DNA of 64,000 bases from Streptomyces sp. ITFR-21 (GTDB lineage: Bacteria > Actinomycetota > Actinomycetes > Streptomycetales > Streptomycetaceae), in contig NZ_CP134605.1 of assembly GCF_031844685.1 (NCBI RefSeq), positions 1,955,501 to 2,019,500 on the forward strand, given 5' to 3'. Positions 42,569-54,557 of this stretch are shown in pieces. Each line of letters starts with the position of its first letter. Position 1 is the first letter of the stretch. The notes beneath the pieces were generated by a model. It made no database searches and was not told where the DNA came from. It saw only the letters and a list, made by a program, of their open reading frames with translations. Made by a program: the position numbers and the translations under genes.

Positions 42569-43861
42569 ATGAGCCAGGAGTCCAGTTCCGGTACGGCGGC
42601 GGACAGCCCGTCGCAAGCACCATCGGCATCGCCTCGCGCCATTCGCAAACTTTCCGCGCGACGTCGACCGGAAGTCGTCGCGGTGCTGCTCTTCAGCGGT
42701 GGACCGATCTTCGAGAGCTCCATACCGCTCTCGGTGTTCGGCATCGACCGGCAGGACGCGGGTGTGCCGCGCTATCGGCTGCTGGTGTGCGCCGGTGAGG
42801 AAGGTCCGCTGCGCACCACCGGCGGCCTCGAACTCACCGCGCCCTACGGCCTGGAGGCGCTGACCCGGGCCGGCACCGTCGTGGTGCCGACCTGGCGCTC
42901 CATATCCCAGGCGCCCCCGCCCGAGGCGCTGGACGCGATCCGCCGCGCCCACGAGGAGGGCGCCCGGATCGTCGGGCTGTGCACAGGCGCCTTCGTACTG
43001 GCCGCGGCCGGGCTGCTCGACGGACGGCCGGCCACCACGCACTGGATGTACGCCCCCACCCTCGCCAAGCGCTATCCGTCGGTCCACGTGGACCCGCGGG
43101 AGCTGTTCGTGGACGACGGGGACGTGCTGACCTCGGCGGGTACGGCCGCGGGTATCGACCTGTGCCTGCACGTGGTCCGTACCGACCACGGCAACGAGGC
43201 GGCGGCGGCGCTGGCCCGGCGGCTGGTGGTTCCGCCCAGGCGGTCGGACTGGCAGACCGGCCAGCGGCACCTGGACAGGTCTTTACCCGAGGAGATCGGG
43301 GCCGACCCGCTGGCCGAGGTCGTCTCCTGGGCGCTGGAGCACCTGCACGAGCAGTTCGACGTGGAGGCGCTGGCCGCGCGCGCGTACATGAGCCGGCGGA
43401 CCTTCGACCGGCGGTTCCGGTCGCTGACCGGCAGCGCCCCGCTGCAGTGGCTGATCACCCAGCGGGTGCTCCAGGCGCAGCGGCTGCTGGAGACCTCCGA
43501 CTACTCGGTGGACGAGGTCGCGGGCCGCTGCGGCTTCCGCTCGCCGGTCGCCCTGCGCGGGCACTTCCGGCGGCAGCTCGGCTCCTCGCCGGCGTCCTAC
43601 CGGGCCGCCTACCGGGCCCGGCGGCCGCAGGACGAGCCGGACCGGCCGGCGCCGTCCCCGGAACTGCCGGCGCTGCGCCGTGGGCCGGTGTCGCAGATCC
43701 TGGCCGCGCCCGGCAAGGCCGACCCGGACGCGTACAGCGCCCGTATCCCGGAGCAGTCGGGCAGGCCCGAGGTGTCGGACGCCTCGGGACGCAACCGGCT
43801 GCGGACCGCCCGTGGCCTCGGCGCCGCACTGCCGGGACCCCGCGACCGCCCCGTAGGGTGA
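42569..43861 (+). CDS. adpA: AdpA (BldH), pleiotropic AraC-family developmental regulator
   Basis: A 430-residue master regulator of morphological differentiation and secondary metabolism in Streptomyces. The N-terminal DJ-1/PfpI-like dimerisation domain has FESSIPLSVFGIDRQDAGVP, RYRLLVCAGEEGPLRTTGGL, VGLCTGAFVLAAAGLLDGR and ATTHWMYAPTLAKRYP. The C-terminal AraC double HTH has FDVEALAARAYMSRRTFDRR and YSVDEVAGRCGFRSPVALRG. These blocks match my recollection of S. griseus AdpA almost word for word. GAGGGGGGC lies 9 bases before the ATG. Leu-239, in the linker between the domains, is a TTA codon (43283-43285), so translation should need the bldA leucyl-tRNA. orn follows 5 bp downstream, as in other streptomycetes. 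Confidence 0.97.
   Translation: MSQESSSGTAADSPSQAPSASPRAIRKLSARRRPEVVAVLLFSGGPIFESSIPLSVFGIDRQDAGVPRYRLLVCAGEEGPLRTTGGLELTAPYGLEALTRAGTVVVPTWRSISQAPPPEALDAIRRAHEEGARIVGLCTGAFVLAAAGLLDGRPATTHWMYAPTLAKRYPSVHVDPRELFVDDGDVLTSAGTAAGIDLCLHVVRTDHGNEAAAALARRLVVPPRRSDWQTGQRHLDRSLPEEIGADPLAEVVSWALEHLHEQFDVEALAARAYMSRRTFDRRFRSLTGSAPLQWLITQRVLQAQRLLETSDYSVDEVAGRCGFRSPVALRGHFRRQLGSSPASYRAAYRARRPQDEPDRPAPSPELPALRRGPVSQILAAPGKADPDAYSARIPEQSGRPEVSDASGRNRLRTARGLGAALPGPRDRPVG
43283..43285 (+). promoter_or_regulatory. TTA codon in adpA (bldA-dependent control point)
   Basis: The sequence AGG TCT TTA CCC GAG encodes Arg-Ser-Leu-Pro-Glu in the interdomain linker of AdpA. TTA is very rare in Streptomyces and is read only by the bldA tRNA. 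Its position matches the well-known conserved TTA in adpA/bldH genes. Confidence 0.93.
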
Positions 43862-43866
43862 GCCGT

Positions 43867-44481
43867 ATGAACGACCGGATGGTGTGGATCGACTGTGAGA
43901 TGACGGGGCTGTCACTGGCGCACGACGCGCTGGTCGAAGTGGCGGCCCTCGTCACCGACTCGGAGCTGAACGTGCTGGGCGAGGGGGTGGACATCGTCAT
44001 CCGCCCTCCCGCCGAGGCGTTGGAGTCGATGCCGGACATCGTCCGGCAGATGCACACCGCCTCCGGGCTGCTCGACGAGCTGGACGGCGGGGTGACGCTC
44101 GCCGAGGCGGAGAAGCTGGTGATGGCCTACGTGCGCAAGCACGTCAGGGAGCCGCGGAAGGCCCCGCTGTGCGGGAACTCGGTCTCCACCGACCGCGGCT
44201 TCCTGGCGCGTGACATGCCCACGCTGGAGCAGCACCTGCACTACCGGATCGTGGACGTCTCCTCGATCAAGGAGCTGTCCCGGCGCTGGTATCCGCGGGC
44301 CTACTTCAACAGCCCGGAGAAGAAGGGCAACCACCGGGCCCTGGCGGACATCCGCGAGTCCATCGCCGAGCTGCGCTACTACCGCGAGGTGGTCTTCGTA
44401 CCGGCCCCGGGTCCCGACACGGACACGGTCCGGGCGATCGCCGCCAAGCACGTCCTGCCCGCGGAGAAGCACGCGCACTGA
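43867..44481 (+). CDS. orn: Oligoribonuclease
   Basis: A 204-residue DEDDh 3'-5' exoribonuclease that degrades 2-5 nt RNA and pGpG (from cyclic di-GMP turnover). The DEDDh residues are in VWIDCEMTGLSLAHDALVEV (motif I), LCGNSVSTDRGFLARDMP (motif II) and KKGNHRALADIRESIAELRY (motif III, His and Asp). It overlaps the adpA operon arrangement closely (5-bp gap) with AGGGTGAG just before the ATG; ornA and adpA are adjacent in other Streptomyces, where orn loss slows aerial growth. Confidence 0.95.
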   Translation: MNDRMVWIDCEMTGLSLAHDALVEVAALVTDSELNVLGEGVDIVIRPPAEALESMPDIVRQMHTASGLLDELDGGVTLAEAEKLVMAYVRKHVREPRKAPLCGNSVSTDRGFLARDMPTLEQHLHYRIVDVSSIKELSRRWYPRAYFNSPEKKGNHRALADIRESIAELRYYREVVFVPAPGPDTDTVRAIAAKHVLPAEKHAH

Positions 44482-44580
44482 TCGCCGGGGCCGGCCGCGC
44501 GGAAGGGCGGGCGCGACCACCCCTCCCGACCCTGTACACTTTTTCAGGCGGCGTCACCCCGGTAGGGAACAGCCGCTCAT

Positions 44581-44654
44581 GGTGGGTGTAGCTCAGCTGG
44601 TAGAGCACCTGGTTGTGGTCCAGGATGCCGCGGGTTCGAGTCCCGTCACTCACC
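44581..44654 (+). tRNA. tRNA-His (anticodon GTG)
   Basis: The acceptor arm GTGGGTG (44582-44588) pairs with CACTCAC (44647-44653), with one G-T pair. The extra 5' G (44581) opposite C (44654) is the G-1:C73 pair peculiar to tRNA-His. The D-arm (GCTCAGCTGGTAGAGC), the anticodon stem and loop CCTGGTTGTGGTCCAGG with anticodon GTG, and the T-arm CGGGTTCGAGTCCCG are all regular. CCA is not encoded. Confidence 0.96.
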
Positions 44655-44660
44655 CTCTGT

Positions 44661-44701
44661 GGAGGAGGCCGCCTCCCGCGTATGCGGGAGACGGCCTCCT
44701 C
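44661..44701 (+). terminator. Terminator of tRNA-His
   Basis: GAGGAGGCC and GCCTCCCGC pair with GCGGGAG and GGCCTCCTC around a GTAT loop, with a one-base bulge, giving a stem of about 17 bp beginning six bases after the tRNA. It is a strong factor-independent-style hairpin lacking a U-run. Confidence 0.8.
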
Positions 44702-44849
44702 TGTCTCCGGCGGTCCTCACCGTTGTCCGCGGCTTGCCCTGTCTCCGGCGGTCCTCACCGTTGTCCGCGGCTTGCCCTGTCTCCGGCGGTCCTCACCGTT
44801 GTCCGCGGCTTGCCCTGTTTGCGGCGGTCTCCTCCGTTGCCGGCTTGCC
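44701..44849. repeat. 38-bp tandem repeat, three and a half copies
   Basis: Three exact 38-bp units (44701-44738, 44739-44776, 44777-44814), each CTGTCTCCGGCGGTCCTCAC followed by CGTTGTCCGCGGCTTGCC, and a diverged fourth of about 35 bp (44815-44849). Units abut without spacers, so this is a direct tandem repeat and not CRISPR. It lies immediately behind the tRNA-His terminator, whose last base is shared. Confidence 0.95.
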
Positions 44850-46140
44850 CTGTCTGCTGCGGGGGGTCGGGGCGGCCCGACGACCCGCCCGGGTGCCGGG
44901 TGGGCACGGCCCGGAACAGATCGTTTCGCGCCGACCTGGAGGCAGACGCGGGCGCCGGCCACCGCCCGCCGGCTGAACGACGCCCCTGGGAGGGGCCGGA
45001 AGGCCACCAGCGGATCCACCGCGGGAACACCATTCCGTCACTGATCCGGTAGGCCTTGGGGTCTGCCGACGGCTGGTGTGCGCTCCACAAACCACCGCCT
45101 TGACCACCAAAACAGGCAGAGCCGTACGCCCCGGCGATAGTTGAAATTGACACGGGTGGTGACATCGGAGTCGGCGGTGATTGTCTTGTTTCCGCCGAAT
45201 GACTTGACAGTGAGGTGCCGTGCGAGGGGGGCTCGTGCCAGGCCGGTGGGCCGGCCTGGAGGCCGGTAAACGGGTGGGCCGGCCGGCGGGCCGGCGCGCG
45301 GGCGCCGCGGCCGGTCCACGGGAGGACAACCCCGAGGGCGGGCCGCCGCGTCGGGCGCGGCCCGGAGCAACAGTCGTACCCGTCGCGTACGCGGGCTACG
45401 CGTGGGGTCTGTCATGTGGATCTCCGGAGTGGGGGACGTTGGGTGGGGGGTGCCCGTGAGTGGGTGACGTACGGCGTCGGGACACCCACAGGCCGGTGCC
45501 GTCGGGCGTCAGGGCGCCCATGAGTGGGCGCCGTCCAGCGTTATGGCACCGCCCTTTCCCTTTTTTGCCGCCTTCTCGCCTCCGGGCGCTTCGGTCCGGT
45601 GTCGACGGTCGACCGTGCTCACTCGCTCGTACCTCGCTCACTGCGCGCGCTCTCCCTTTCGACACCGGCGCGCCCTTCGGCTCACCGGCTACCCGGCCGA
45701 ACGTCGGGCGTCAGGTGGGCCCAGCGGCCGAACGCACCACGCACAGCGGACCCGGTGGCCGAACACACGGCGTCAGGTGGGCGCGGGGATGGACCTTCGG
45801 GGGTGTCGGTGCCCCAAGGGGTGCCGTCAGGGGTGGGGGTGCCCCAAGGGGGTGCCGTGGGGTGGGGGCCGTACGGCGTCGGGACGCGGCGTGGCTGGTG
45901 GTCTGGTGCAACGGGCCGCGTCGGCGGGCGTGTTCGGGCCGGGCGCGGCCAGGCGTACGGAGCTCTCGACGGTCTGGCCCTTGTACGCGACAAGGGCGCC
46001 CCCTACCGTCCGGGCGGAGCGGATCTTCTTCCCGCCCGTCCCCCCGTTCACACGGGTTTTTCGGCCCGCGTTCAACGACCCGCGCTGAACAGGCACTTGC
46101 CCGTTCGAGACTCGAAATCGGCGGGGCACCAACAGACCAC
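44850..46140. other. Gene-free repeat-rich region between tRNA-His and the glucanase gene
   Basis: I find no credible coding sequence here. It contains several imperfect direct repeats. GTACGGCGTCGGGAC occurs at 45469-45483 and 45871-45885; GGCGTCAGGTGGGC at 45707-45720 and 45769-45782; and a pair of 29-30 bp units starting TGCCCCAAGGGG at about 45810 and 45840. A GC-only stretch near 45240-45320 is built from GGGCCGGC variants. Open frames through it are Arg/Pro/Gly-rich and lack ribosome binding sites. The cause (decayed element or intergenic expansion) is not visible. Confidence 0.6.
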
Positions 46141-46154
46141 TATTGAACAACTTA

Positions 46155-46206
46155 TTGACGGCGATGTACGGGGCTTGTAAACATCACCTCGCTAGAGAGC
46201 GCTCTC
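46155..46206 (+). promoter_or_regulatory. Promoter and CebR-like operator of the GH64 gene
   Basis: TTGACG (46155-46160) followed by TGTAAAC near 46176-46182 suggests a promoter, with an AT-rich stretch around it. Just downstream lies the perfect 12-bp palindrome GAGAGCGCTCTC (46195-46206). In its flanks it matches the CebR box TGGGAGCGCTCCCA at 11 of 14 positions. A LacI-type repressor bound there would block elongation or open complex formation. Confidence 0.6.
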
Positions 46207-46258
46207 AGGTGGGCGCTCCGGCCTCCATCACGGACCCCCACCCGGTTGAGGAGAACAC

Positions 46259-48067
46259 ATGTCAGGCAGCACAGCCTCATTGGTGCGCCGACGGCCAGGA
46301 CGGAACGACAGATCCCGGCCGTATCTGATCCTCGCGCTGCTGGTCGCCCTCGTGGCGGGCCTCGCGCTCGTCGTGACCTCACAGTCCCCGGCCCGCGCGG
46401 CCGACACCCTGCTGTCCCAGAACAAGCCCACCACCGCGTCCTCCACCGAGAACGCGGGCACGCCCGCCTCGGCGGCGGTGGACGGCGACACCGGCACCCG
46501 CTGGTCCAGCGCCGCCGCCGACCCGCAGTGGCTCCAGGTCGACCTCGGCGCGGCCCAGAGCATCTCCCAGGTGACCCTCAACTGGGAGACGGCGTACGGC
46601 AAGTCCTTCAAGATCCAGACCTCCGCCGACGGCACCGCGTGGACGGACGTCTACTCCACGACGGCCGGCACCGGCGGCGTACAGAACCTCACCGTAAACG
46701 GTTCCGGGCGTTACGTCCGGTTCTACGGCACGGTCCGGGGCACGCAGTACGGCTACTCCCTGTGGGAGTTCCAGGTGTACGGCGGCGGCCCGACCCAGCC
46801 GGCCGTGTGCAGCGGCGACAACGCGGCGCTGAACAGGCCCGCCACGGCGTCCTCCTCCGAGAACGCGGGCACCGCCGCCTCGGCCGCGGTGGACGGCAAC
46901 ACCGGCACCCGCTGGTCGAGCGCGTTCAGTGACCCGCAGTGGCTCCAGGTGGACCTCGGCGCGACCCAGCAGATCTGCGGGGTCGGCCTGAACTGGGAGG
47001 CCGCGTACGCCTCGGCGTACCAGATCCAGACCTCCGACGACGGCACCAACTGGACCTCGGTCTACTCCACCACCACGGGCACCGGCGGCGTGCAGAACCT
47101 GAACGTCACCGGCACCGGCCGCTACATCCGGGTCTACGGCACCACGCGTGCCACGGGCTACGGCTACTCGCTGTGGGAGTTCCAGGTCTACCTGCTGTCC
47201 GGTTCCACCACCCCGCCGCCGACCTCCCCGACGACCCCGCCGCCGAGTGACGCGTTCTGGGGCACGACCAGCGACATCCCGGCCGCGCACAACGTGCTGG
47301 AACTGAAGATCCTCAACCGGACCAACGGCCAGTACCCCGACAGCCAGGTCTACTGGAGCTTCAACGGCCAGGTGCACTCGATCGCGGAGCAGCCGTACTT
47401 CGACATGCCGGCGAACTCCTCGGGCCGGATGTACTTCTACCTCGGCTCCCCGACCAGCCAGTACTACGACTTCATCGAGTTCACCATCGGCGCGACCGTC
47501 TTCAACGGGAACACCACCCGCGTCGACGCGTGGGGCCTGCCGCTGGCGATCCGGCTGCACTCGCACGACGGCCAGGACATCCAGCTCGGTGACAGCCAGG
47601 ACCTGTTCAACCAGAGCCGGGACGCCACGTTCGCCCAGTTCCAGGCGGCCGTGCCGCAACAGTTCAAGGTGCTGGCCCAGACCCAGGCTCCGTACCGGAT
47701 CATCGCCCCCGGCAGCGACCCGAGCTTCCAGGTCGGCGGCGTGAACGCCGACTACTTCACGGCGTACGCCAACTCGGTCGGCGTCAACGAGCCCACCTCG
47801 AACGTCTTCGGCTGCGCCGGTTCGCTCGGCGCCGACGCGAGCCTGTGCGCGGCGCTCAACCGCCACACCGCCACCCTCCCGACGGCCCAGCAGCAGGACC
47901 CGACCAAGTTCTACTCGGCCGACCCGGCCAACTGGTACGCCAAGTTCTGGCACGACCACGCGATCAACCACCTCGCCTACGGCTTCCCGTACGACGACGT
48001 GGCCGGCCAGGCCGCGTACGCCACCGTACAGAACCCGCAGTGGATGGAGATCGCCGTCGGCTGGTGA
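46259..48067 (+). CDS. Secreted GH64 beta-1,3-glucanase with two F5/8C (discoidin) domains
   Basis: A 602-residue exported polysaccharidase. A signal peptide (YLILALLVALVAGLALVVTS) is followed by two F5/8 type C carbohydrate-binding domains, residues about 50-175 and 190-315. They are near duplicates: both contain TGTRWSS, DPQWLQVDLGA and YGYSLWEFQVY. After a Pro/Thr linker (PPPTSPTTPPPS) comes the GH64 catalytic domain (334-602) with LNRTNGQYPDSQVYWSFNGQ, SIAEQPYFDMPANSSGRMYF, YLGSPTSQYYDFIEFTIG and, near the end, HDHAINHLAYGFPYDDV. GH64 enzymes release laminari-oligosaccharides from fungal beta-1,3-glucan. GAGGAG precedes the ATG. Its operator resembles the CebR box, linking it to the neighbouring glucoside uptake system. 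Confidence 0.9.
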   Translation: MSGSTASLVRRRPGRNDRSRPYLILALLVALVAGLALVVTSQSPARAADTLLSQNKPTTASSTENAGTPASAAVDGDTGTRWSSAAADPQWLQVDLGAAQSISQVTLNWETAYGKSFKIQTSADGTAWTDVYSTTAGTGGVQNLTVNGSGRYVRFYGTVRGTQYGYSLWEFQVYGGGPTQPAVCSGDNAALNRPATASSSENAGTAASAAVDGNTGTRWSSAFSDPQWLQVDLGATQQICGVGLNWEAAYASAYQIQTSDDGTNWTSVYSTTTGTGGVQNLNVTGTGRYIRVYGTTRATGYGYSLWEFQVYLLSGSTTPPPTSPTTPPPSDAFWGTTSDIPAAHNVLELKILNRTNGQYPDSQVYWSFNGQVHSIAEQPYFDMPANSSGRMYFYLGSPTSQYYDFIEFTIGATVFNGNTTRVDAWGLPLAIRLHSHDGQDIQLGDSQDLFNQSRDATFAQFQAAVPQQFKVLAQTQAPYRIIAPGSDPSFQVGGVNADYFTAYANSVGVNEPTSNVFGCAGSLGADASLCAALNRHTATLPTAQQQDPTKFYSADPANWYAKFWHDHAINHLAYGFPYDDVAGQAAYATVQNPQWMEIAVGW

Positions 48068-48285
48068 CGCCGGTGCCACCGTGACGGGGTCGTTCCGCCC
48101 GGGATGATCCCGTCACCCTCCGAACCGTCTCCCGATCCCCCCACAAAGAACCGCCGGGGGCGGGACGCGGACACCCCCCATGTGTCCGCGTTCCGCCCCC
48201 GGCGGCGTCTCGTGCCGGCGGCGCGCGTCTCGCGCCGGGCGCGCGGCCCGTCAACGCGACCCGTCAACGGGGCCCGCCGGATCGT

Positions 48286-48786
48286 CTACGGGGTGAGCAG
48301 GAGGCAGCTGCTGGTGGCGGTGGCCAGCAGGCGGCCTCCGGCGGTCTCCAGGCGGGCCTCGGCCAGGGCGGTGCGGCGGCCGAGGTGGACGACGCGGCCG
48401 GTGCAGCGGACCGTGCCGGAGCCGACGCGGAGGGCGTTGAGGAACTTCACGCCGAGATCGAGGGAGGTGTAGCCGGTGCCGGCCGGCAGGCGGGTCTGCA
48501 CGGCGCAGCCGGCCGCGGAGTCCAGCAGGGTGGCGTAGACGCCGCCGTGCACGGACCCGATGGGGTTGTAGTGGAACTCGGCGGGTTCCAGGACGAAGAC
48601 GGCCTCGCCTTCGGCGACGGACTCCAGCCGCATGCCGAGGGTGTGCAGGATCGGCGGTGCCGGTACGTCGCCGGCCAGCATCGCGCGCAGGAACTCCAGC
48701 CCGCTGCGGCCGGTCATGCCTGCCGCGGTGACCAGCGGGTCCTCCCACTCGACCACCCGCCGCCGCCCGGTTTCCCCGTCTGCCAC
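48286..48786 (-). CDS. PaaI-type hot-dog thioesterase
   Basis: A 166-residue single hot-dog domain protein. The family core is LGMRLESVAEGEAVFVLEPA, FHYNPIGSVHGGVYATLLDS (the HGG segment with catalytic Asp nearby), AGCAVQTRLPAGTGYTSLDL and VHLGRRTALAEARLETA. Such proteins hydrolyse aromatic or medium-chain acyl-CoAs; the specific substrate is not evident. The GTG at 48786 has GGGAGAGG about ten bases ahead; the ORF extends further upstream to 49299 over the AsnC remnant on the other strand and is not used. No obvious operon partner. Confidence 0.82.
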   Translation of the reverse strand: MADGETGRRRVVEWEDPLVTAAGMTGRSGLEFLRAMLAGDVPAPPILHTLGMRLESVAEGEAVFVLEPAEFHYNPIGSVHGGVYATLLDSAAGCAVQTRLPAGTGYTSLDLGVKFLNALRVGSGTVRCTGRVVHLGRRTALAEARLETAGGRLLATATSSCLLLTP

Positions 48787-48954
48787 GCCGCCCGCCTCTC
48801 CCTGGGTTCGTTCCGGGCCGAGCCTATGCCGGTCCGTGCGCACGGCTCGGACCGGGCACCCGCGGGGGCCCGGCGGCGGTGCTCGCGGGTCGGGCCGGGC
48901 GCTTGCGGGGGGGGTGGCGCCGGGATCGCGCGATCCGGCGGCCCCGGCCGGCAC

Positions 48955-49437
48955 GTGCGGCGCTCTGTGGGCGGAAGGACCGCGGCGGGCGCGGCGGGCG
49001 GGCCGCCCGACGGCACCGACCGGCGGATCCTGGCCGCCCTCGCCGACGACGCCCGGCCGCCCGCCGCCGCGCTCGCGGCACTCACCGGCCGTCTCCAGTC
49101 GACCGTCCGCCGCCGTCTGGCCCGACTGGCCGCCAGGCAGCGGCTCATCACCCAGATCGTGATCGACCCGCACCGCCTCGGCCTGGCCGTACGCCAACGT
49201 CAGGCCGCGCGTGCCCCCGGACCGCCTGGCCACGGCCGGCCGCGCGCTCACCGAACACCCGGCCGTCCACGGCGCCTTCGCCACCTCGGGCCCGGCCAAC
49301 CGCCACGCGGCCGTACGGGTACGGGCCCTGGCCGCCCTCTACGCCTTCCTCGCGGGGACCTGCCGGGGCTCGGCATCACCCACGCCGAGACGGCCATCGT
49401 CTCCCAGGCCGTCCAGCGTCCGGGCCCCGGGCGTTGA
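48955..49437 (+). pseudogene. AsnC/Lrp-type regulator remnant with compensating frameshifts
   Basis: The 160-codon frame is open from a GTG at 48955, yet only its two ends are protein-like. The first part, DRRILAALADDARPPAAALA and STVRRRLARLAARQRLITQI, is an AsnC helix-turn-helix; the end, LPGLGITHAETAIVSQAVQR, is the tail of the ligand-binding domain. The missing middle (VPPDRLATAGRALTEHP, VHGAFATSGPANRHAAV, LAALYAFLAGT) is found in another frame at about 49200-49370. Two opposite shifts therefore scramble some 55 residues. Double-HTH Streptomyces AsnC proteins are about 330 residues, so the 5' half is also gone. A functional product is unlikely. Confidence 0.75.
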
Positions 49438-49722
49438 GCGGCCCGCGCCCTGGTCGGCGACCACGGGACCGCCGAGCGTTCCCTGGCCGGCGAGACCGCC
49501 CCCGGCCTCGACGTCCTGGGGCCGCCGGCGCCGGCCTCGGGATCGGCACGGACTCCGCCGCGGCCGGGAAGCGGTCCGCCGTCCCAGGCGGAAGGCGCTC
49601 CCGCCGCCGCAGCCGGGAAGCAGTGCCCCGCTGCCTCGGGCAGGAAAGACGGCCGCTCCCTCAGGCCGGCGGCAGGCCGGGTCCGCGGGGCGGGCGACGG
49701 CGCCAGCCGGCGCCGACACGCC
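49438..49722. other. Unassigned stretch between AsnC remnant and cebR
   Basis: No gene is recognisable. Short segments have protein-like composition but no family I know, and no ribosome binding site. It may be further eroded sequence of the same locus as the AsnC remnant. The cebR gene reads leftward into it. Confidence 0.4.
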
Positions 49723-50745
49723 CTATACCGAGTCCCGTTGAATCAGCTCCGTCGCCAGCACCACGTGTCTGCGGACCGAGGCCCGTTCGGCGATCTCCTC
49801 CATCAGGACGCGCGCCATCGTACGGCCCATCTCCTCGGTGGGCTGGCGCACGGAGGACAGCGCGGGGTCCATGTGGCGGGCGATGGCGGAGTCCTCGAAG
49901 CCGACCATGGCCACGTCGTCCGGCACCCGGCGGCCGAGTTCGCGCAGTACGGCGCGCGCGCCGGCGGCCATCACGTCGGAGGCGGCGAAGACCCCGTCGA
50001 TCCCGGGCTGCCGGGCGAGCAGCTCCCGCATCGCGCGCCGGCCGCCCTCCTCGGTGAAGTCGCCGCCCGCCACCAGGGATTGGGGGAGGTCGAGTCCGGC
50101 CTGGCCGACCGCCTGGTAGTAGCCGTCGAGCCGGCAGCGGGCCACGTACATGTCCAGCGGGCCGGTGATCGTGGCGACCTGGCGCCGCCCGCGGGCGACG
50201 AGGTGGGCGACGGCGGCCCGGGCGCCGCCGACGTTGTCGGCGTCGACGTAGGAGACGGATTCCAGGTCGCTGCGGCGGCCGTTGAGGACGGCCGGCATCT
50301 CCAGCTGCTCCAGCAGGTCGGGCAGCGGGTCGTCCTCGTGCACGGAGACGAGCAGGACGCCGTCCACCCGGTGGGCGGCCAGGTACTGGCCGAACCGGGA
50401 CCGCTCCTTGGGCGTGCGGATCAAGGTGAGCAGCAACTGCATCTCGGTGTCGGCGAGTTCGGCGCCGATGCCGCGGATGATGTCGGAGAAGTAGGGCTCG
50501 GCGAACAGCCGTGTCTCGGGCTCCGGGATGACGAGGGCGATCGCGTCGGTGCGGTTGCCGGCCAGCGCGCGGGCCGCCCGGTTGGGTACGTACCCCAGCT
50601 CGGCGATGGCGGCCTCGACGGCGGCCTTCGCGCGGTCGCTGACCCGCGGCGAGCCGTTGATCACGCGCGAGACCGTACCGCGCCCCACCCCGGCGCGTAC
50701 GGCCACCTCTTCCAGAGTGGGCCGTCCACTGTGCCGCCCGTTCAT
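49723..50745 (-). CDS. cebR: CebR, LacI-family repressor of cellobiose/cello-oligosaccharide utilisation
   Basis: A 340-residue LacI protein. The HTH and hinge are RPTLEEVAVRAGVGRGTVSR, INGSPRVSDRAKAAVEAAIA and LGYVPNRAARALAGN; the sugar-binding domain includes DAIALVIPEPETRLFAEPYF, ARGRRQVATITGPLDMYVAR, CRLDGYYQA and VAMVGFEDSAIARHMDPALS. Divergence from cebEFG-bglC and the boxes between them identify it as CebR, which senses cellobiose or cellotriose. The ATG at 50745 with GGAGG ahead of it is preferred to 50781. It probably autoregulates through the box at 50816-50829. Confidence 0.93.
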   Translation of the reverse strand: MNGRHSGRPTLEEVAVRAGVGRGTVSRVINGSPRVSDRAKAAVEAAIAELGYVPNRAARALAGNRTDAIALVIPEPETRLFAEPYFSDIIRGIGAELADTEMQLLLTLIRTPKERSRFGQYLAAHRVDGVLLVSVHEDDPLPDLLEQLEMPAVLNGRRSDLESVSYVDADNVGGARAAVAHLVARGRRQVATITGPLDMYVARCRLDGYYQAVGQAGLDLPQSLVAGGDFTEEGGRRAMRELLARQPGIDGVFAASDVMAAGARAVLRELGRRVPDDVAMVGFEDSAIARHMDPALSSVRQPTEEMGRTMARVLMEEIAERASVRRHVVLATELIQRDSV

Positions 50746-50815
50746 GGCCACTTCCGCCTCCTGCTGGCTCTGTCGCGCCACCTTAGCGCCCGCCGCGTAC
50801 GCTTCCGAGGGCGCT

Positions 50816-50829
50816 TGAGAGCGCTCCCA
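50816..50829. promoter_or_regulatory. CebR box 1 (near cebR)
   Basis: TGAGAGCGCTCCCA differs from the CebR consensus TGGGAGCGCTCCCA at one position. It lies 71 bp upstream of the cebR start and 188 bp from the second, perfect box, which would suit looping or separate control of cebR. Confidence 0.8.
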
Positions 50830-50982: not shown

Positions 50983-51040
50983 TTGACACTGCCCCCCCTG
51001 AGGCGTGACTGTTCCGGAAAGCGCAATGGGAGCGCTCCCA
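50983..51040 (+). promoter_or_regulatory. cebEFG promoter and perfect CebR box 2
   Basis: TTGACA (50983-50988), a 17-base spacer and TGACTG (51006-51011) suggest the cebE promoter. TGGGAGCGCTCCCA (51027-51040) is the exact 14-bp CebR operator just past the start site, which would block transcription until cellobiose binds CebR. cebE starts 85 bp later. The rest of the 50746-51125 gap has no gene. Confidence 0.87.
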
Positions 51041-51125: not shown

Positions 51126-52475
51126 ATGCGCACTTCCGGCAGAACCCGCAAGACCGCCGTCATCGCGGTCGCGGGTCTCGCAGCCTGCGCGACCCTGATC
51201 ACCGGATGCAGCAGCGACAGCAAGGACTCCGGCAGCGGCGGTGGCAAGGCCGCCGCGAACGAGAAGATCACGCTGCACATCGGTGACTTCGGCTCGTTCG
51301 GCTATGACGACAAGACGGGCGCCAAGCTCTTCTCCGAGTACCACGCGCTGCACCCCAACATCACCGTGATCGAGGACAACGTCTCGGACAGCGGGGCGTA
51401 CTGGAACTCCCTGAAGCTGCACCTGACCCAGAACAGCGGGCTCGACGACATCCAGGCGCTGGAGATCGGCTTCATCGCCAACGCGACCCAGCCGCAGTAC
51501 GCGTCGAAGTTCGTGGACTTCAATACGGTCAAGGGGTTCGACGCGGGCGCCTGGCTGGACTACAAGGAGAAGGAGGCCACCACCTCCGACGGCAAGGTCA
51601 TCGGTGTGGGCACGGACGTCGGCCCGACCGCGATCTGCTACCGCAAGGACCTGTTCCAGCAGGCCGGGCTGCCGACCGACCGGGACGCGGTGGCGGCGCT
51701 GTGGGCGGGCGACTGGGGCAAGTTCGTCACCGCCGGGAAGCAGTTCAAGGCGCACGCGCCGGCCGGGGTGGCCTTCACCGACTCCGCCAGCGGCCTGTTC
51801 AACGCGGTGCTGTCCAGCCAGCCCGACCAGTATTCGGACGGCTCGGGGAACCTGGTCTACGACACCAGCCCGGGGGTGAAGACGGCCTGGGACATCGCGT
51901 CCACCGCGGTGCAGGACGGACTGACCGCCAAGCTCCAGCAGTTCGACGCGAACAACACCTGGACCGCGGCCTTCAAGACCAACAAGTTCGCCACCGTGGC
52001 CTGCCCGAGCTGGATGATCGGCCTGGTCGCCACCAACTCCGGTCCGGCCAACCAGGGCAAGTGGGACATCGCGCAGCCGCCGCAAGCCGGCAACTGGGGC
52101 GGGTCCTTCCTGGCGGTGCCCAAGTCCGGCAAGCACGTGGCCGAGGCGACCGCGCTGGCGCAGTGGCTGACCGCCGCGGCGCAGGAGGTCAAGGTCTTCC
52201 AGAAGTTCGGCAACATCCCGTCGAACAAGGCCGCGCTGAGTGACCCGGCGGTGCTGAACACCACCAACGCGTACTTCCCCGGCACCCCGGTCGGCAAGAT
52301 CTTCACCGCGACCGCGAACGACATCAAGCCGGCCCCGATCGGCCCGAACGACGGCGTGGTGAAGGACACCATCACGCAGAACGGCCTGCTCGACATGGAG
52401 CAGCGCGGCACCTCCAAGGACAAGGCCTGGTCCAACGTCCAGGCCCAGGTCAAGGACAAGGTCGGCGACCAGTAA
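51126..52475 (+). CDS. cebE: CebE, cellobiose/cellotriose-binding lipoprotein
   Basis: A 449-residue extracellular solute-binding protein. [20 protein letters not shown] and CATLITGC form a lipoprotein signal with lipobox LITGC, followed by a Ser/Gly linker. The mature family-1 sugar-binding fold has [60 protein letters not shown] and [20 protein letters not shown]. It delivers cello-oligosaccharides to CebF/CebG; the ATPase is normally supplied in trans by MsiK, whose gene is absent here, as expected. AAGGAGAG precedes the ATG. Confidence 0.93.
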
Positions 52476-52682: not shown

Positions 52683-53630
52683 GTGGCCACCTCCGTGAGG
52701 GCGACGTCGGACGGCGACTCCACCGGCTGGCGCAGCAAGCTGTACCGGCTGGACACCAAGGCGTCGCCGTACGCGTACATCGCCCCCTTCTTCCTCTGCT
52801 TCGCCGCCTTCGGACTCTTCCCACTGATCTACACCGGCTGGCTCTCCCTCAACCAGGTGGAACTCGGCACCGGTGCCCAGTGGGTCGGCTTCCACAACTA
52901 CGCCGAGCTGTGGGACAACCAGTTCTTCTGGAACGCGCTGCGCAACACCTTCACGCTGGGCCTGATCTCCACCGTGCCGCAGCTGCTGATGGCGCTGGGC
53001 CTGGCGCACCTGCTCAACTACAAACTGCGCGCCCGCGGCTTCTTCCGGGTGGCGGTGCTGGCGCCGTACGCGACCTCGATCGCGGCGGCGTCGCTGGTGT
53101 TCGTCCAGCTGTTCAACCCCGACTACGGGATGATCAACCAGCTGCTCGGGCACCTCGGCGTCGACCCGGTGCAGTGGTCGTCGTCCAAGTGGCCGGCGCA
53201 GATCGCGATCTCCTCCATCGTGACCTGGCGCTGGACCGGCTACAACGCGCTCATCTACCTGGCCGCCATGCAGGCGGTCTCCGGCGACCTGTACGAGGCG
53301 GCGGCGCTGGACGGCGCCTCCCGGTGGCGGCAGTTCGTCAGTGTGACGATCCCGTCGATCCGGCCGACGATCTTCTTCACGATCATCGTCTCCACCATCG
53401 GCGCCACCCAGCTGTTCGGCGAGCCGCTGATCTACGGCGGCAACAGCGGCTCGGGCGGCTCGGCACACCAGTACCAGACACTGAGCCTGTACATGTACGA
53501 CAAGGGCTGGCAGGTCGGCGAGCTGGGGCAGGCGTCCGCGGTGGCCTGGGTCATGCTGCTGATCCTGCTGCTCATCGGCGCCGTCCAGCTGTTCGTGTTG
53601 CGGAACAACCGCCGGAAGCTGGGAGGCTGA
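52683..53630 (+). CDS. cebF: CebF, cellobiose ABC transporter permease
   Basis: A 315-residue MalF-type inner-membrane permease. Six membrane segments are apparent, beginning [20 protein letters not shown]. The EAA loop that contacts the ATPase is [20 protein letters not shown] (EAA-3x-G-9x-I/L-x-L-P form). The GTG start has GGAAGG upstream. cebG starts 4 bases after its stop. It is the first of the two permeases importing cello-oligosaccharides bound by CebE. Confidence 0.92.
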
Positions 53631-53633
53631 CCG

Positions 53634-54557
53634 ATGGCACAACTCACCCAGCCGGTGGCGCCCGCGGGGTCCCGGCCGTCCACCGCCGCCAGGCCGGCCC
53701 GCCGCCGGTTCCGGCCGCGCGCGGGCGGCGCGGGCAAGCAGCAGAGCGGCGGCCCGGTCGCGTACCTGTTCCTGATCGTCGCCACGCTGCTGTCGCTGTT
53801 CCCGCTGTACTGGACGGTGGTCGCGGCCTCGCACACCGACACCGACATCGTCACCCCGCCGACGCCGCTGCTGCCCGGCAGCCATCTGATCTCGAACCTC
53901 AGAATCGTCTGGGACCAGGTCGACATGACCACCGCCCTGGTCAACTCCACCATCGTGGCCGGGTGCGTGGCCTTCAGCACCGTGCTGTTCGCGACGCTGG
54001 CCGGATTCGCCTTCGCCAAGCTGGAGTTCAGGGGGCGCAACGCCCTGCTGACCGTCGTGGTGGCGACCATGACCATCCCGCCACAGCTCACCGTGATCCC
54101 GCTGTACCAGATCATCACCGACGTCGGCTGGGTCGGGCACATCCAGTCGGTGATCCTGCCGTCGCTGGTGGCCGCGTTCGGGGTGTTCTTCATGCGGCAG
54201 TTCCTCAGCGAGGCACTGCCGGTGGAGCTGGTCGAGGCGGCCCGGGTGGACGGGGCGCACAGCATGCGGATCATCTGGCACGTGGTGTTCCCGGTCGCCC
54301 GGCCGGCCATGGCGGTGCTCGGCATGCTGGTGTTCGTGCAGGCCTGGAACGACTTCTTCTGGCCGTTCATCGCGCTGAACCAGCAGAACCCGACGGTCCA
54401 GGTCGCCCTGGCCGGGCTGGGCTCCGGCGACCACACCATCGACCACGCGGTGGTGGTGACCGGCGCGCTGGTGGCGACGCTGCCACTGCTGCTGGTCTTC
54501 GCCGTGCTCGGCCGGCAGATCGTCGGCGGTATCACCGCCGGCGCGGTCAAGAACTGA
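53634..54557 (+). CDS. cebG: CebG, cellobiose ABC transporter permease
   Basis: A 307-residue MalG-type permease. The first helix is [20 protein letters not shown]; the EAA loop is [20 protein letters not shown], followed by [21 protein letters not shown] basic, Pro/Arg-rich N-terminal tail of about 40 residues precedes the first membrane helix. GGGAGG before the ATG is the ribosome binding site. Translational closeness to cebF and downstream bglC define the operon. Confidence 0.93.

Follow-up and report, generated by a model that had tools for sequence, protein, structure and literature searches.

In Streptomyces sp. ITFR-21, a gene for a β-1,3-glucanase of glycoside hydrolase family 64 (GH64) adjoins cebR, and a palindrome resembling the CebR box lies ahead of it, raising the question of which repressor acts on that site. 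A sequence-only reading of the window, the whole 64,000-nucleotide stretch analysed here (contig NZ_CP134605.1, positions 1,955,501–2,019,500), had assigned the site to CebR, which would couple attack on fungal walls to the uptake of cellobiose or laminaribiose. Here, by computation, we show the site, its position and its conservation, the gene set that shares it and, within the genus, a match between operator base and recognition helix.

The predicted GH64 operator and its neighbourhood

The features of the window that bear on the question are as follows.

46155–46160, plus strand: probable −35 element TTGACG, read by eye, with TTGAC conserved before boxed GH64 genes
46178–46183, plus strand: probable −10 element TAAACA, read by eye, 17 nt beyond the −35 element
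46195–46206, no strand assigned: predicted operator GAGAGCGCTCTC of the A/A type, from the sequence (with flanks, AGAGAGCGCTCTCA at 46194–46207)
46259–48067, plus strand: GH64 β-1,3-glucanase of 602 amino acids with two F5/8C domains (Pfam; PDB relatives 5h9x and 9vp9)
49723–50781, minus strand: cebR, a LacI-family repressor with the helix GRGTVSR (Arg-Gly), by domain and helix reading
50816–50829, no strand assigned: hybrid site TGAGAGCGCTCCCA ahead of cebR, combining a CebR half with an A half (box scan)
51027–51040, no strand assigned: perfect CebR box TGGGAGCGCTCCCA before cebE (box scan)
51126–52475, plus strand: cebE-like solute-binding protein (SBP_bac_8)
52683–53630 and 53634–54557, plus strand: two permease genes, cebF-like and cebG-like, respectively (BPD_transp_1)

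The name cebR rests on position, the gene having a CebR box and a cebE-like gene as neighbours. The sequence-only reading described the GH64 site accurately: GAGAGCGCTCTC occupies exactly 46195–46206, Pfam places the gene behind it (46259–48067) in GH64 and, with its flanks, the site shares 11 of 14 bases with the CebR box, AGAGAGCGCTCTCA differing from TGGGAGCGCTCCCA at positions 1, 3 and 12. The distance of 3.5 kb to cebR holds for the end of that gene, the start of which is 4.6 kb away, and the placement just past a promoter stands on elements read by eye (TTGACG–17 nt–TAAACA, 46155–46183), with GAGAGCGCTCTC lying 11 bp past the probable −10 element and 52 bp ahead of the GH64 ATG. A consensus promoter scan reported no sigma-70 site at the GH64 gene. 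TTGAC is found 33–46 bp ahead of the box in all 58 boxed GH64 promoters compared (the window and 57 further loci), and at that place in none of 58 control windows taken 100 bp further upstream. Judging from the −10 element, GAGAGCGCTCTC would cover the transcription start, a usual place of repressor sites, and it looks like a LacI-type operator just downstream of the GH64 promoter. Taken by itself, the likeness to the CebR box carries little weight, because the window holds five matches to that box at three or fewer mismatches against 7.9 expected.

The GH64 gene sits between cebR and an AraC-type gene (window 42569–49723; AraC domains by domain search), which we take to be AdpA-like. In five genus stretches (G007 and G019–G022), GH64 is missing from this interval and roughly 1 kb separates the AraC gene from cebR, which would suit either an insertion or a loss of GH64. 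A possible AsnC/Lrp remnant seen by eye at about 48950–49440 matched no Pfam family in the frames searched. GH64 adjoins cebR in 19 of the 32 genus stretches examined, and an A box lies inside 16 of these 19; the other three end short of the promoter.

Beyond these stretches, the box was sought in the 1,800 bp ahead of the catalytic part at the best 80 of 208 GH64 loci, drawn from named genomes, a selection in which close relatives weigh most. Among these 80 loci, 57 carry the A/A form, eight a hybrid and none the G/G form of the CebR box; the 15 with neither comprise three cut by contig ends and 12 uncut. Shuffled upstream sequence gave no box match in any of 20 rounds, and no other palindrome recurred in the 17 box-less loci in which one was sought. 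In stretches that extend at most 9 kb to either side, cebR was found in seven of the same best 80 loci. The hybrid replaces the A form at eight Streptomyces GH64 promoters (L070, L072, L073, L079, L080, L081, L088 and L089).

Recognition helices and operator bases

The recognition helix of CebR has Gly-Arg-Gly where all three LacI proteins of the A-type sites have Ser-Arg-Ala. According to the LacI code set out in a part of PMC2978694, two helix residues determine, in each half-site, bases 4 and 5; by alignment to LacI Tyr17-Gln18, we took these residues to be the last two of the three. It is at base 5, counted from the centre, that the core of each half-site differs between the A form and the CebR box. 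A CebR box is defined here by G at position 5 in both halves, and the GH64 site has A in both.

Helix and box were compared across 35 genomes of the genus, with the box sought within 450 bp upstream of the helix; own-promoter sites used in this way presuppose autoregulation, which is itself an assumption here. Arg-Ala LacI genes have GAGAGCGCTCTC upstream in 66 of 67 cases (67 of 68 including L189, which the first pattern missed), the sole genus gene without the exact box being L154 of genome G018, where a one-mismatch form is present. The Arg-Gly genes of the genus, namely cebR, have TGGGAGCGCTCCCA in 33 of 33 cases and the A form in none, a tally that covers 33 of the 35 genomes, as G016 and G026 gave no cebR-like match. 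In other genera of the family, cebR has G/G in 23 of 24 loci and A/A in none. Outside the family, the A/A box was absent within 450 bp in all 13 Arg-Ala LacI loci, so that the helix–box rule holds as shown for this genus only; within the family, one other genus contributed four loci, with two A/A boxes, one hybrid and one neither, and Arg-Gly loci outside the family had G/G in one of four. This wider comparison, across the class, took 59 loci, of which seven were left uncounted (five with helices outside the pattern and two duplicates by position).

The cebR promoter itself carries both kinds of half-site. Of 33 cebR promoters in the genus, 28 contain the hybrid TGGGAGCGCTCTCA, and the CebR half occupies the same side in every one; none of 24 cebR loci in other genera of the family has it. 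It is also present in genus cebR stretches that have no adjoining GH64 gene and is thus independent of that neighbourhood. The hybrid before cebR leaves room for cross-talk, and a contribution of CebR at GH64 may still exist, because the cebR promoter and eight of the best 80 of 208 GH64 promoters are half-and-half; it is there that the coupling proposed in the sequence-only reading might yet apply. BglC of S. scabiei degrades laminaribiose, as stated in a part of PMC9426481, and bglC carries a CebR box in the S. scabies list (PMC5332605, Table 1), which together make a metabolic link plausible.

The A-type gene set and its outer flanks

The exact 12-mer GAGAGCGCTCTC greatly exceeds chance frequency: it occurs 17 times in the 7.36-Mb genome, and the reversed pattern not once; across the 35 genus genomes there are 591 copies, whereas the backward control gave one copy in each of two genomes. 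We examined the surroundings of all 17 sites, with genes called by a simple script. Twelve precede intact glycoside hydrolase genes: GH64, two GH16, three GH55 (one with two sites), four GH3 and one GH2-like. One GH16 call was made by Pfam and the other by PDB relatives. The three GH55 calls are relatives of 4pew, an entry that its own listing describes as a putative secreted protein and that we take to be SACTE_4363; two of these relatives (L039:6165–7979 and L042:5249–7105) gave no match to Pfam at 0.001. SACTE_4363 is given as a GH55 laminarinase in a part of PMC12772271. The script placed the start codon beyond the site in four genes (the L032 GH55, the L034 GH3, the GH2-like gene and the L041 LacI), which makes those starts doubtful; the encoded domains all start behind the sites.

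The remaining sites precede a GH3 remnant (one), LacI genes (three, none of which is CebR) and a PAS-SpoIIE gene (one). At L040:5936–7130 (genome C1:6302435), the GH3 gene, with an F5/8C domain, is now a remnant and its operator is intact. The site at L031:6017–6028 has a LacI gene on one side, which it closely follows, and a PAS-GAF-SpoIIE phosphatase gene on the other; each of the other 16 is ahead of a LacI gene, a glycoside hydrolase gene or the remnant of one. None of the 17 exact sites has a sugar transporter as a neighbour. The genome also holds nine exact CebR boxes, of which seven stand at cebE, cellulase or CBM2 genes (cebE, three GH6 genes, a GH48 and a GH5 gene with one box in common, and two further CBM2 genes); of the other two, one lies close to a Roadblock gene, and no gene was assigned to the second. 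The A-type sites apparently mark a separate β-1,3-glucan gene set, which a single base in each half-site seems to keep distinct from the cellulose genes.

Two types of LacI gene with A-type sites are distinguished below, and in this genome they lie at the following positions.

genome C1:5669622–5670662: L038-type LacI
genome C1:523591–524634: L038-type paralogue, 79% identical
genome C1:6380235–6381374: L041-type LacI

Identity to CebR is 52% for the L038 regulator and 43% for the L041 regulator. L038-type genes occur in all 35 genus genomes (identity at least 71%) and L041-type genes in 29 (identity at least 61%). Their own sites differ in the bases immediately outside the core: those of L041-type genes are flanked by G...C in 28 of 28 cases (28 of 29 once L189 is counted), whereas those of L038-type genes, in a tally that covers part of the listed second copies, are so flanked in none of 40 (A...A in 20, G...A in nine, T...C in five and others in six). 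The GH64 site is flanked by A...A and not by G...C, as in L038-type own promoters. This split emerged only on inspection of the data, and the first comparison, which includes the regulator's own site, found GGAGAGCGCTCTCC in 28 of 29 genomes with an L041-type gene and in none of five near-complete genomes without one; with one site per genome set aside, GGAGAGCGCTCTCC is still present in 27 of 29 against none of five. The exception, G010, has an L041-type gene (L189, Arg-Ala) with an A...T box of its own and no GGAGAGCGCTCTCC; in G016, which is 71% complete, there are two G...C sites and no L041-type gene was found. Sites whose two flanking bases are each A or T occur in all 35 genus genomes, the same distribution as the L038-type genes.

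Samples of one locus per genome show what stands beside each class. The 29 G...C sites lie near GH2-like genes, L041-type LacI genes, GH3 genes and F5/8C proteins, with GH55 once and none at GH64, GH16 or L038-type genes; the 30 A/T-flanked sites lie near L038-type LacI genes (six), GH55 (six), GH64 (four), GH16 (two), F5/8C proteins and a single GH3-like gene, L041-type and GH2-like genes being absent. Five of the 29 and eight of the 30 matched no query protein. In G034, which has no L041-type gene, the GH64 box is still present.

The regulator of GH64 and its relation to known systems

What endures of the sequence-only reading is a LacI-family operator, resembling the CebR box, on a β-1,3-glucanase promoter; the part that probably does not is CebR as its regulator, and the outcome named there as contrary, binding by another LacI regulator, appears the better-supported one. 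That CebR itself binds the 46195 site and couples GH64 to cellobiose is quite unlikely. The 11 of 14 matching bases, the adjacency of GH64 and cebR in 19 of 32 genus stretches and the co-secretion of a GH64 enzyme with a CebR-controlled GH6 on xylan by Streptomyces SirexAA-E, reported in a part of PMC12772271, all speak for it. Set against the promoters of cebR and of GH64 relatives, this reading lost ground: there is no A/A form at the 33 genus or 24 other cebR promoters, no G/G core at the best 80 of 208 GH64 loci, and the site stands on many GH64 genes with no cebR in the stretch covered. The S. scabies CebR boxes listed in Table 1 of PMC5332605, several of which deviate from consensus at other positions, never do so at position 3 or 12, where the core of the GH64 site differs. 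A chance palindrome with no function is scarcely credible, even though CebR matches at three mismatches are no commoner in the window than expected, given the 17 copies against no reversed ones in the genome and the fixed place past TTGAC in 58 of 58 boxed GH64 promoters (the window and 57 of the best 80 of 208 loci).

Two further explanations involve the paralogues. The L041-type LacI, which is found among GH2-like and GH3 genes, shares the core box; more sites occur in the 29 genomes that have it (median 19) than in the six that do not (2–12), and a 61–63% identical LacI protein is encoded directly upstream of GH64 in L091, L109, L117 and L121. As the main regulator of GH64 it is nevertheless unlikely, because 28 of its 29 own sites have the G...C flank where GH64 has A...A, GH64 stands at none of the 29 sampled G...C sites and at four of the 30 A/T-flanked ones, and G034 keeps its GH64 box without an L041-type gene. 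An A/A site common to two or three paralogues, bound weakly by CebR and integrating several sugar signals, is conceivable but doubtful: hybrids before cebR (28 of 33) and on eight of the best 80 of 208 GH64 promoters would fit it, as would the 52% and 43% identity of the L038 and L041 regulators to CebR, but pure sites are strictly sorted by helix type within the genus.

Probably, then, a CebR paralogue and not CebR itself represses GH64 through the 46195 site, and the A...A flank makes the L038-type LacI, or its 79% identical paralogue, the best candidate. We propose that an Arg-Ala LacI dimer would bind GAGAGCGCTCTC over the presumed transcription start and block transcription, until a β-1,3-glucan product, perhaps laminaribiose or a longer oligomer, releases it; release would jointly derepress the GH16, GH55 and GH3 genes that share the site. 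The base pair at position 7, outside the core, would assign GH64 to the L038-type and not to the L041-type regulator, and CebR, with its Arg-Gly helix, would read G at position 5 and control the cellulose genes.

More tentatively, and with no great probability, the three LacI paralogues may form one scheme in which G or A at position 5 separates cellulose from β-1,3-glucan genes, A/T against G...C at position 7 separates the L038 from the L041 set, and the hybrid is a bridge between them. The L038-type set would then comprise secreted glucanases and the L041-type set GH3 and GH2-like genes, and CebR and the L038-type regulator might compete for the hybrid or form a mixed dimer on it, so that the supply of β-1,3-glucan would tune the cellulose repressor.

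The proposed paralogue system has known counterparts. The CebR/CelR regulon, as described in parts of PMC4898821 and PMC4890002 and in Table 1 of PMC5332605, is alike in its LacI-family regulator, 14-bp palindrome, glucan-degrading enzymes and site at the regulator's own gene; it differs in having G in its box TGGGAGCGCTCCCA where the A-type system has A at position 5 of each half-site, an Arg-Gly instead of an Arg-Ala helix, and β-1,4-glucan instead of β-1,3-glucan genes. A 2012 survey of actinobacterial cellulose systems (PMC3377646) gives TGAGAGCGCTCTCA, AGAGAGCGCTCTCT and GGAGAGCGCTCTCC sites in C. acidiphila, S. roseum and T. bispora. In the section of it compared here, these have the same core 12-mer and lie near LacI genes, GH16 genes (which may encode endo-1,3-β-glucanases), GH3 and CBM32; they are noted there, in contrast, for operons of cellobiose-type transporters and a small number of other genes, and that section contains no helix–box test, larger regulon or outer-flank split. 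The recognition code of Camas et al. (2010), in the part of PMC2978694 concerned, likewise has two helix residues setting bases 4 and 5 and uses own-promoter sites as evidence. Beyond the PMC3377646 sites, a search of the open-access literature did not find the regulon in this genus, the helix–box match or the flank split. The A-type system thus appears to be a CebR-like LacI system for β-1,3-glucan, the palindromes themselves being already known in other genera.

Searches for CebR sites that tolerate mismatches could misassign A-type sites. If the proposal is true, the control of a fungal-wall enzyme by CebR would be corrected, its likely regulators named and a whole β-1,3-glucan regulon predicted. 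It would also provide a natural example of duplicated repressors whose separation rests on two helix residues and a single base in each half-site, the host bacteria being able to attack plant and fungal walls alike.
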